Shown here one piece after another: positions 12,450 to 50,056 of a stretch of DNA of 64,000 nt (its first letter is position 1; the number at the start of each line of letters is the position of its first letter). Location: positions 1 through 64,000 of the forward strand of contig CANHGM010000002.1 in assembly GCA_947460345.1 (NCBI GenBank), given 5' to 3'. A model generated the notes under the pieces. That model did no database searches. It was given only the letters and a program-made list of their open reading frames with translations, and was not told the DNA's origin. This stretch comes from Bacteroidota bacterium (GTDB lineage: Bacteria; Bacteroidota; Bacteroidia; UKL13-3). A program made the translations under genes and the position numbers.

Positions 12450-12709
12450 ATGAGAAAAATCAAAAATTAATTTTCAGTATCCATAGTGGCAGTTCTGATC
12501 GCAACATTTTATTCGATGATTTGATTACACTTTTATTATATTTGAATTTCAATTCTAGAATAAAAGGGAATCATCATATTTTCTTTAAAGAAGGCATCGA
12601 TGAAATAATAAATATTCAACCTGATGGTAACTAAGCAAAGCCATATCAAGTTAAACAAATAAGAAACATCATAACAAAATATAAACTCACCAAAAAAGAT
12701 GAAAAATAA
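12450..12709 (+). pseudogene. hicA: hicA-type toxin remnant, interrupted by TAA
   Basis: The plus-strand frame reads LFDDLITLLLYLNF, then IKGNHHIFFKEG and IINIQPDGN, a HicA mRNA-interferase fold with the catalytic His of the GxHHIF motif. A TAA at 12632-12634 breaks the frame right after PDGN. The same frame then goes on with AKPYQVKQIRNIITKYKL, the expected C-terminal HicA helix, to a second stop at 12707-12709. No in-frame ATG precedes the domain; the ATG at 12450 is in another frame, so the 5' end is probably damaged too. hicB overlaps its 3' end by 11 bases. It is probably inactive, though a readthrough product cannot be excluded. Confidence 0.8.
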
Positions 12710-12911
12710 ATATGAAGTAATCATATATTGGAGCGAAGATGACAAAAAATTCTTGGATGAAGTCCCAGAATTGTAGGGCTGTATGGCCGATGGTAAGACT
12801 CAGATAGAAGCTTTAAAAAATGTTGAATTAATAGTTGAAGAGTGGATTGAAACTGCAAAAAAAACTTGGGCAGAAATATCCCAATCAGTTGATATAAGAT
12901 ATTCTAATTAA
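12699..12911 (+). pseudogene. hicB: hicB-type antitoxin remnant, interrupted by TAG
   Basis: ATG at 12699 opens KYEVIIYWSEDDKKFLDEVPEL, the start of a HicB antitoxin. A TAG at 12774-12776 (codon 26) stands exactly where the family has Pro in PELPGC. The same frame continues GCMADGKTQIEALKNVE, then EEWIETAKK, to a stop at 12909-12911. The conserved motif resuming directly after the stop shows a point nonsense change rather than a deletion. The C-terminus after AKK diverges from the usual LGREIPEP. With both genes interrupted, this toxin-antitoxin module looks dead. Confidence 0.85.
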
Positions 12912-12958: not shown

Positions 12959-13003
12959 AAAAATGGACAAATATGCATTATGAATGCATATTTGTCCATT
13001 TTT
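12959..13003. repeat. Perfect 45-bp palindrome upstream of the DUF4143 ATPase
   Basis: Two 21-bp arms (12959-12979 and 12983-13003) are exact reverse complements around the 3-nt centre ATG; the core half-site is TGGACAAATATGCATT. It ends 17 bases before the ATPase start codon and 6 bases before the -7 box, so it covers the region where the -33 element should lie. The likely role is an operator for a dimeric regulator or for the ATPase locus itself. A transcribed hairpin or a mobile-element end are alternatives. There is no T-run right after it that would make it a good terminator on the plus strand. Confidence 0.85.
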
Positions 13004-13008
13004 GGTTA

Positions 13009-13016
13009 TATATTTG
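13009..13016 (+). promoter_or_regulatory. -7 promoter box of the DUF4143 ATPase gene
   Basis: TATATTTG matches TAnnTTTG and ends only 4 bases before the ATG at 13021, so the transcript would be nearly leaderless. A TTTG at 12991-12994 inside the palindrome could be a -33 element, although the 14-bp spacing is short. Occupancy of the palindrome should therefore block transcription. Confidence 0.6.
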
Positions 13017-13020
13017 TGTC

Positions 13021-14187
13021 ATGATTGAAAGAAATATTTCGGCAAAAGTTAAATCATTAGCTCGTAAATTTCCAGTGGTAACCATTACTGGGCCAAGACA
13101 ATCAGGTAAAAGTACACTGATTAAAAACTTATTCCCTAAGAAACCTTATATATCTCTTGAAGACCCAGATATGAGAAGACTAGCCATTGAGGATCCACGT
13201 GGCTTTTTAAATAACTATCCTAATGGAGCTATACTAGATGAAGTCCAAAATATTCCAAGCTTATTTTCATATATACAAGGCATTGTTGATCATAAAAACA
13301 AATCAGGAATGTATATACTTAGTGGCTCTCAAAACTTTTTGCTGATGGAAAAAATCACCCAAACCCTTGCAGGAAGAACAGCAATATGTCAACTACTTCC
13401 TTTGAGCAAATCTGAGTTAGAACAATCAGGAATTAAAACATCAGATATTAATACACTTATATATAAAGGATTTTATCCAAGACTATATGATAAAAGAATA
13501 AGCCCAACTGACTTTTATTCCTCCTACTTAAAAACGTATATAGAAAGAGATGTGAGACAAATTCGAAACATCACAGACCACAGTCTATTTCTTAAATTTC
13601 TAAAAATGTGTGCTGCAAGAATAGGTTCTGTGTTGAATATACAATCGCTAGCCAATGACTGCGGCGTATCACTCAATACAGCAAAATCATGGCTATCTGT
13701 CTTAGAAACTGGATATATTATCAATTTACTTCAACCATATCATAACAATTTCAACAAACGATTGATGAAAAGTCCGAAATTGTATTTTTACGATACTGGA
13801 TTGGTTTGCCATTTATTGGGCATTAGCAATTCAAAGGATATTGCTCATCATTATTTGAGAGGAGGTTTATTTGAAAATTTAGTCATAGCAGATACCCTTA
13901 AATTCTACCACAATCAAGCCAAACAGCCCCCAATTTATTATTGGAAAGACAAGACTCAAAAAGAAATTGACTTAATCATAGACAAAGGTAATGACAAACT
14001 TTTGGCTATTGAAATCAAAGCAGGGGAAACCATGACTAAAGACTACTTCGCCAATTTCTCTTATTGGAATAAAATCACGCTATCAAAACCAGAAAAAAAC
14101 ATGGTAGTGTATGCGGGTGAAAAACAATTTCAAACAGTGTCTGGTCTATATGTGCCATTTAATGTATATGAAAATATCATCAAATGA
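13021..14187 (+). CDS. AAA-type ATPase with DUF4143 domain
   Basis: A 388-residue ATPase. Walker A is GPRQSGKST (residues 24-32, Lys30), Walker B is AILDEVQ (Asp73, Glu74), and an SGSQNF sensor segment follows. The C-terminal DUF4143 half ends with KEIDLIIDKG, then AIEIKAGE, a PD-(D/E)xK nuclease-like pattern common in this family. These proteins are widespread, often multicopy and of unknown function; DNA repair or mobile-element roles have been suggested. The ATG at 13021 is chosen because the earlier in-frame ATG at 12973 lies inside the upstream palindrome and before the -7 box. It sits alone between the dead hicAB pair and a broken cytochrome gene, consistent with an accessory patch. Confidence 0.88.
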   Translation: MIERNISAKVKSLARKFPVVTITGPRQSGKSTLIKNLFPKKPYISLEDPDMRRLAIEDPRGFLNNYPNGAILDEVQNIPSLFSYIQGIVDHKNKSGMYILSGSQNFLLMEKITQTLAGRTAICQLLPLSKSELEQSGIKTSDINTLIYKGFYPRLYDKRISPTDFYSSYLKTYIERDVRQIRNITDHSLFLKFLKMCAARIGSVLNIQSLANDCGVSLNTAKSWLSVLETGYIINLLQPYHNNFNKRLMKSPKLYFYDTGLVCHLLGISNSKDIAHHYLRGGLFENLVIADTLKFYHNQAKQPPIYYWKDKTQKEIDLIIDKGNDKLLAIEIKAGETMTKDYFANFSYWNKITLSKPEKNMVVYAGEKQFQTVSGLYVPFNVYENIIK

Positions 14188-39348: not shown

Positions 39349-39552
39349 CTACAAAAAGAACTCCTCTATATATGAGGAGTTCTTTTTGTATAATTGTATT
39401 GCAAAACGGGCTGCCCAAAACTTATATAAGCCGGATCTAAGTATATATTCTTCGAAACCTTTAATGGATAAGAGAAATATATCTAAGTTGTCGCCGTTCT
39501 TTAAGAATGGTGACTTATATATAAAAGCAAGGTCTGTGACCTGGTATTCTTG
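39349..39552 (-). pseudogene. Possible 3' remnant of a minus-strand gene
   Basis: The minus strand has an open frame of 67 codons without a start codon. It reads DLAFIYKSPFLKNGDNLDIF and LRSGLYKFWAARFAIQLYKKN, a residue mix that looks coding, ending at a TAG at 39349 on the hairpin edge. No ATG, TTG or GTG in good context lies upstream, so it looks like the tail of a lost gene. I do not recognise the family. The plus-strand frame covering the same bases is unconvincing. Confidence 0.25.
39351..39389. terminator. Bidirectional terminator-like hairpin, 16-bp perfect stem
   Basis: ACAAAAAGAACTCCTC (39351-39366) is the exact reverse complement of GAGGAGTTCTTTTTGT (39374-39389) around a 7-nt loop TATATAT. 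The A-run at one end and the T-run at the other let it end transcripts from both sides. It separates the sigma remnant on the left from the minus-strand remnant on the right. Confidence 0.75.
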
Positions 39553-49332: not shown

Positions 49333-49350
49333 TAGTATTACAATATTTAT

Positions 49351-49387
49351 AAAAAAAGAGCTTCAAGAAATTGAAGCTCTTTTTTTA
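49351..49387. terminator. Bidirectional terminator between the OmpA/TPR gene and ung
   Basis: AAAGAGCTTCAA pairs with TTGAAGCTCTTT around GAAA, with A- and T-runs on both sides. It ends the plus-strand OmpA/TPR gene, and its T-run overlaps the ung stop codon on the minus strand. Confidence 0.85.
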
Positions 49388-50056
49388 TATTTTCCAATCA
49401 ATAGGTTTTAATTTTTTTTCTGATAAGAATTTATTTGCAAGCACAAAATGATTATTTCCTAAAAAGCCATTATAGAAAGAGAATGGAGAAGGATGTGCTG
49501 ATGTTAAAACAAGATGCATTTTATTCGTTATTAAAACTGATTTGCTTTTAGCATAGTTTCCCCATAACATAAATACAATTGGCCTGTTTTGAAAAGCTAT
49601 GTGCTTAATCAAAGCATCCGTAAAAGTTTCCCAACCTATATTTCTATGAGATGCTGGTTCATTTGCTCTAACTGTTAAAATACTGTTTAACAATAAAACA
49701 CCTTGCTTGGCCCAAGGAGTTAAATTACCATTTGACATATTCATTTTAATATGTAATTCGTTTTCTATCTCTTTGTAAATATTGATTAAAGAAGGTGGTG
49801 GTTTGATATGATCATTAACTGAAAAGCTTAATCCATTTGCTTGGGATGATCCATGATAAGGGTCTTGACCTAAGATAACCACTTTTACTTCACTTAATTC
49901 TGTATGGTTAAAGGCTTCAAAAATTTTGTTGTTAGTTGGATAGATCTCGTATTTTTTTTGCTCTTCAACTAATATTGATTTAAGGGCTGTGAAATATGAT
50001 TTATGAAATTCGCTTTCAAATATATTGTTCCATGATTTATGTATATTTAGCATCAT
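49385..50056 (-). CDS. ung: Uracil-DNA glycosylase
   Basis: A 223-residue family 1 enzyme that removes uracil from DNA. The water-activating motif is GQDPYHG (Asp65, His68); LTPWAKQGVLLLNSILTVRA is the second block, and the catalytic His loop is TSAHPSPFS. Length and order fit Ung. A minus-strand TATATTTG box at 50072-50079 lies about 15 bases upstream. The upstream region is shared with the divergent PKD-protein gene. Confidence 0.95.
   Translation of the reverse strand: MMLNIHKSWNNIFESEFHKSYFTALKSILVEEQKKYEIYPTNNKIFEAFNHTELSEVKVVILGQDPYHGSSQANGLSFSVNDHIKPPPSLINIYKEIENELHIKMNMSNGNLTPWAKQGVLLLNSILTVRANEPASHRNIGWETFTDALIKHIAFQNRPIVFMLWGNYAKSKSVLITNKMHLVLTSAHPSPFSFYNGFLGNNHFVLANKFLSEKKLKPIDWKI

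Follow-up and report, generated by a model that had tools for sequence, protein, structure and literature searches.

A palindrome overlapping the promoter of a PDC-S01 ATPase gene recurs at homologous loci and covaries with the winged-helix region of the encoded protein

An ATPase gene preceded by a perfect palindrome

The window, by which we mean the whole 64-kb stretch of Bacteroidota DNA that was analyzed, carries an AAA_14-DUF4143 ATPase gene whose promoter adjoins a perfect palindrome, referred to here as PAL_up. The locus is composed of the following features.

12959-13003, no strand: PAL_up, a perfect palindrome with arms of 21 nt (AAAAATGGACAAATATGCATT) and a 3-nt center, its midpoint 40 nt 5' of the start codon
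13009-13016, plus strand: TATATTTG, the -7 promoter box, starting at -12 relative to the gene start
13021-14187, plus strand: AAA_14-DUF4143 ATPase gene (388 aa; PDC-S01 in PADLOC), assigned by Pfam and PADLOC profiles
13072-13419, plus strand: AAA_14 P-loop ATPase domain, residues 18-133, with Walker A GPRQSGKS and Walker B AILDE
13516-13830, plus strand: helix-rich region with a predicted winged helix-turn-helix, residues 166-270, whose similarity tracks the palindrome
13831-14184, plus strand: candidate C-terminal PD-(D/E)XK-like nuclease domain, residues 271-388, with E285, D317, E331 and K333

The initial annotation of this DNA described two 21-nt arms without mismatch, centered on ATG, and considered such length and perfection improbable by chance. 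The description is exact, since the arms at 12959-12979 and 12983-13003 are 100% complementary with 0 mismatches, and PAL_up is the longest perfect inverted repeat of the window when a spacer of up to 20 is allowed. The judgment on chance was borne out by 20 dinucleotide-preserving shuffles of the whole 64 kb, in which the longest arm was 9-12 nt. Folded as single-stranded DNA, PAL_up gave -21 kcal/mol (z = -8.4); its left edge is A-rich and its right edge T-rich. Downstream of it come 5 bases, the TATATTTG box, 4 bases and the start codon at 13021. The consensus of the Bacteroidota-type -7 promoter is TAnnTTTG, and we take the window box at 13009-13016 to be an example. The initial annotation also raised the question of whether the half-site occurs elsewhere in this genome, and a 17-nt half-site pattern allowing 0-1 mismatches had no further occurrence in the 3.0 Mb.

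Two other perfect inverted repeats of the window, at 49348-49389 (19-nt arms) and 39350-39390 (17-nt arms), resemble ordinary terminators. Just 5' of PAL_up, positions 12482-12910 hold a decayed HicA-HicB toxin-antitoxin pair: what is left of HicA (E 6e-6) is interrupted by an internal stop, and the HicB/UPF0150-like remnant by an internal TAG.

The encoded protein matches Pfam AAA_14 (E 3.5e-27) followed by DUF4143 (E 1.9e-51), both above cut-offs, and these were the only domains found, with no known transposase or HUH domain among them. The PADLOC profile PDC-S01 spans residues 1-376 (E 9.9e-102), a full-length match. Residues E285, D317, E331 and K333, the latter two forming E331-x-K333, are invariant across an alignment of 8 homologous sequences, and the nuclease-like C-terminus, where model confidence (pLDDT) is low, gives weak profile matches to CARF_PDDEXK (1e-4) and Can2 (E 0.12). 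The AlphaFold model is modest overall (pLDDT 67). A structure search placed the archaeal AAA+ ATPases 2qen and 2fna nearest to it, with STAND and ORC/Cdc6 proteins further down, and a sequence search of solved structures returned no full-length relative. A start codon inside the palindrome (12973, giving a 404-aa ORF) was disfavored, since the alignment of the homologues begins at 13021, which the -7 box closely precedes. The window gene was the only close AAA_14-DUF4143 gene found in the 3.0-Mb genome.

By its profile match and its predicted ATPase and PD-(D/E)XK-like architecture, the gene is a member of PDC-S01, a candidate defense gene in PADLOC; the initial annotation, which called the ATPase family widespread and functionally unexplained, had missed this identity. 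PDC-S01 was the fourth commonest putative defense system of prokaryotes in one survey, with about 29,494 genes in bacteria and 9,986 in archaea, and is described there as an ATPase plus a PD-(D/E)XK-like domain, experimental validation being pending for most PDC candidates (PMC12988326). The family is reported to be very abundant in rumen genomes (PMC13356809). A search of open-access papers found none linking DUF4143 to palindromes.

Palindromes at homologous genes, upstream and downstream

The initial annotation predicted recurrence near DUF4143 homologues, and such recurrence was found. Among the 94 loci assembled first, 52% scored 15 or more for a palindrome inside the 100 nt 5' of the start, compared with 0.1% of 2658 control 100-mers and 0 of 940 shuffles. 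By a fixed criterion, a comparable upstream palindrome was present at 91 of 174 non-identical homologous loci from Bacteroidota and other phyla (51 of 96 clusters formed at 60% identity) and in 20 of 2453 control windows (0.8%), an enrichment of about 60-fold at the ATPase family; these percentages are approximate, since homologue sampling leaned to Bacteroidota, start codons were placed by alignment and thresholds were set by hand.

The half-site TGGACAAATATGCAAT is common to the window and to homologues of 72% identity, one of which, in a Flavobacteriaceae MAG and in a different context, has TGGACAAATATGCAATTTGATTGCGGATTTGTCCA at nearly the same position; a site homologous to PAL_up is present at loci L010, L018 and L019. 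Near-perfect palindromes 15-60 nt 5' of the start are common in relatives of the same family and the same class, and perfect or near-perfect examples were found outside these in Coxiellaceae MAGs and on plasmids of Moraxella bovis and Azotobacter, while a Treponema succinifaciens plasmid has a palindrome on each side of the gene with an identical inner core. Arms range from 17 to 30 nt across the family, and the sequence varies between subfamilies, following the protein (CAAATACGG marks one clade), with related half-sites found in Coxiellaceae and Bacteroidota. About half of the homologues score as palindrome-free under the criterion applied, among them the majority of G+C-rich plasmid copies from alphaproteobacteria, and the palindrome is therefore a feature of many subfamilies and not of all. 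Extending the search to viral contigs added three relatives only.

The motifs that were searched are confined to the gene. When the motif of one subfamily was searched over 64 genomes, it occurred in 1-2 places per positive genome, every one at a DUF4143 gene (in one case a truncated gene at a contig end), and palindromes searched in two Coxiellaceae genomes occurred in 1 and 2 places only. A scattered MITE or a global operator was rejected, as the half-site and a sister motif are confined to the ATPase gene.

An unusual expansion is seen in the Coxiellaceae MAGs behind L013 and L014 (G481 and G482), which have 19 and 27 DUF4143 genes at genome sizes of ~3 Mb. In related genomes, DUF4143 genes of two distant subfamilies lie beside the same host gene pair (L160 in G002; L034/L027 in G015 and G045), with about 26% and about 50% identity to the window protein, respectively, and the copy in G002 bears palindromic repeats in tandem, TTTTTGGGGAA/TTCCCC.

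At 24 loci (7 clusters), a second palindrome matching PAL_up, here called PAL_dn, follows the stop codon, usually centered 20-45 nt beyond it, and the half-sites of the two palindromes of one locus are mostly 94-100% identical. The initial annotation was right about the upstream copy and missed the downstream copy of relatives. PAL_dn is present in the closest relatives of the window (L018 and L019) at +2 to +42; a decayed PAL_dn sought 3' of the window gene was not found, so that the window copy has PAL_up alone. At another locus (L055), a perfect palindrome with 29-nt arms follows the stop, the outer part of which, AACCACCCTTCAACT, lies outside the shared core.

Promoter geometry and covariation with the protein

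Of the 46 palindrome-bearing loci with an exact TAnnTTTG box near the start codon, 39 place its first base at -12, as does the window. With the box fixed at this position, transcripts should be leaderless or nearly so, and at most Bacteroidota loci the palindrome therefore lies outside the mRNA, as a feature of the DNA. Measured from the ATG, palindrome centers group around -40/-37, -30 and -20, with a periodicity of about 10 bp (R = 0.42, p = 0.0024, n = 42, one value per cluster), and hence overlap the promoter in helical steps. The constant box and the helical phasing favor a putative operator that keeps to one helical face with respect to RNA polymerase.

This geometry also bears on the idea that the palindrome is a bidirectional transcription terminator or an RNA hairpin that insulates the gene. 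A consensus scan flags it as terminator-like on both strands, and the A-rich left and T-rich right ends fit this description, but at most Bacteroidota loci PAL_up precedes the gene's own promoter, whose transcript would be nearly leaderless, and the stems of the palindrome are A+T-rich. Moreover, its sequence tracks the winged-helix region, and PAL_up and PAL_dn have the same sequence, which a terminator does not require. Nor is it the 3'-end hairpin with a T-run that makes an intrinsic terminator, the palindrome being upstream of the promoter, and a known RNA family was rejected, since only chance matches to miRNA models were obtained, well under the Rfam gathering score. We consider a terminator or insulating hairpin highly improbable.

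Within the palindromes, arm pairing is 0.92-0.99 over positions 8-16 despite sequences that differ between clades, and is still 0.66-0.74 at positions 17-19, where the sequence varies by locus; composition alone would give ~0.26, and distant positions give about 0.3. Such extended pairing may mean either that symmetric recognition reaches far out, or that a hairpin or cruciform form matters, or that template switching keeps the palindromes perfect.

The more similar two proteins are, the more similar are their half-sites (Mantel r = 0.65, p <= 5e-4, 2000 permutations; the sequences share ancestry and are not independent). After whole-protein similarity was removed, residues 166-270 alone remained positively associated with the site, with a small partial correlation (partial r = 0.148, p <= 5e-4), while the ATPase part was unassociated and the nuclease part was negative. 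The site sequence thus covaries with the putative DNA-binding, winged-helix region of the product, which is where self-recognition predicts the association to lie, and this suggests that each protein of the family may recognize its own gene. Together with the promoter overlap and the helical phasing, the covariation supports the earlier reading of PAL_up as a cis site that would occlude the promoter.

These results weigh as well on whether the palindrome might serve a different host regulator as its operator, or be a chance or neutral sequence kept perfect by replication slippage with template-switch correction. Pairing that reaches positions varying between loci would fit such an account. The enrichment at the ATPase family, the absence of the searched motifs elsewhere in the genomes, the covariation with the encoded protein and the related half-sites in Coxiellaceae and Bacteroidota all argue against both versions, which we rank as the least probable account of the site.

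Unit boundaries and possible mobility

Homology was compared between non-syntenic pairs, in unrelated contexts, whose proteins are at least 78% identical. On the upstream side, about 90 of the 121 pairs (30 genes) lost homology no farther than about 10 nt from the outer edge of PAL_up, with a tail further out. Downstream, it ended no more than 12 nt from the outer edge of PAL_dn in 71 of the 82 pairs with that palindrome, and at the stop codon, mostly at 0-2 nt, in the 76 pairs without it. Syntenic flanks at similar divergence kept their homology. Since homology ends at the palindromes or at the stop, the gene and its palindrome or palindromes behave as one unit.

The unit occupies many unrelated gene contexts, plasmids included. 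On plasmid pEMTOL02 of Emticicia oligotrophica (L246), the ATPase gene is flanked by araD and araA and oriented opposite to both, suggesting insertion into the arabinose operon. Other contexts, at aspS and asnS, are common to genera or genomes, and inheritance is therefore often vertical. Five close pairs of units (L084/L085, L086/L088, L035/L038, L075/L076 and L065/L068) have one flank in common and differ in the other, a pattern that rearrangement breakpoints at the unit would produce. Three loci of genus g124 (L188, L180 and L175) have the ATPase gene adjoining fragments of an apparent DNA methyltransferase gene, and their upstream and downstream flanks are recombined as a mosaic among relatives of ~96% protein identity.

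The initial annotation had offered a mobile-element end as an alternative, which gains support from the loss of homology at the palindromes that flank the gene on either side. On this account the palindromes would be the ends of a mobile single-gene element, their overlap with the promoter would be secondary, and the ATPase with its PD-(D/E)XK-like domain would move or copy the unit by acting on them, perhaps in hairpin or cruciform form. Consistent with this are the abrupt loss of homology between non-syntenic relatives, the unrelated contexts, the plasmid locations including that between araD and araA, the 19 and 27 copies of the wider family in two Coxiellaceae MAGs, and a gene-less aspS-pth site in one genome (G037), where a single decayed palindrome is left. 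Against it, no target-site duplications were seen by eye at loci with both palindromes, inheritance at aspS and asnS appears often vertical, units without PAL_dn have changed context too, and the protein has no known transposase or HUH domain. Clean empty sites were sought in the aspS-pth and U0-prmC/rpsU contexts, which showed losses, remnants and different neighbors with no unambiguous insertion; the gene-less sites resemble losses instead of pre-insertion sites, and functional units transferred in other ways could give similar boundaries. We regard a mobile element as a rather unlikely primary explanation, one that is compatible with an operator role for the same palindromes.

A candidate self-recognizing unit and its relation to known systems

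We think it probable that the adjacent ATPase recognizes the palindrome, which overlaps the promoter, as its cognate site and hence regulates its own gene, in a self-contained unit; binding and repression are deduced here from sequence comparisons. The ATPase, probably a dimer or higher oligomer, would bind both half-sites through its winged-helix region, and since the site covers the DNA immediately 5' of the -7 box, its occupation would shut off, or otherwise control, the ATPase's own promoter. Protein and site would travel together, and in the several lineages with PAL_dn one oligomer could bridge both ends of its own gene. Several observations go against this explanation. Arms of 17-30 nt exceed those of usual operators and are perfect even where the sequence changes from locus to locus, as if a hairpin or cruciform were required or a copying process were at work, and PAL_dn is unnecessary for simple autorepression. 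The lack of a palindrome at about half of the homologues, the small partial correlation among sequences of shared ancestry and the weak structure model count against it as well.

The palindrome may possibly also mark the ends of a mobile single-gene unit. A stronger proposal, that PDC-S01 is, or derives from, a self-mobilizing single-gene element moving by a transposition or homing mechanism undescribed before, would have the winged helix recognize a palindrome with two roles, control of the promoter and, where it is paired, delimitation of the moving unit; we find it doubtful. Under autoregulation through a cognate site, the reading we prefer, an unexplained ATPase-nuclease becomes directly assayable, with its own palindrome as substrate and a binding specificity that can be swapped, and whether the PDC-S01 family comprises defense genes, self-regulating elements or mobile elements becomes decidable.

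The window gene is a clear member of PDC-S01 (COG1373-type AAA_14 plus DUF4143 ATPase-nucleases) by profile and architecture; the literature found treats this family as a stand-alone defense candidate, without the palindrome, its downstream copy or the unit boundaries. Toxin-antitoxin operators and phage repressors likewise place an inverted repeat over their own promoter that is matched to the product's DNA-binding domain. Their arms, however, are of about 6-10, in contrast to the 17-30 nt and near-perfect pairing seen here, and the present system differs further in the copy that follows the stop codon and in its product, an AAA+ ATPase bearing a nuclease-like domain. Cdc6/Orc1 proteins bind inverted-repeat origin boxes, and the archaeal proteins PABY2304/SSO1545 and Orc1/Cdc6 resemble the ATPase in that an AAA+ core is followed by a winged helix, with 2qen and 2fna as the nearest folds to the model, although TM-scores are low (about 0.3-0.4); they differ from it in its C-terminal PD-(D/E)XK-like domain and in its single-locus site instead of an origin. 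Finally, IS200/IS605 and REPIN-RAYT elements, like the units described here, consist of a single gene bounded by perfect or imperfect palindromes with no obvious target duplication, but they depend on HUH Y1 transposases, which are absent here, and the ATPase-nuclease is unrelated to known transposases.
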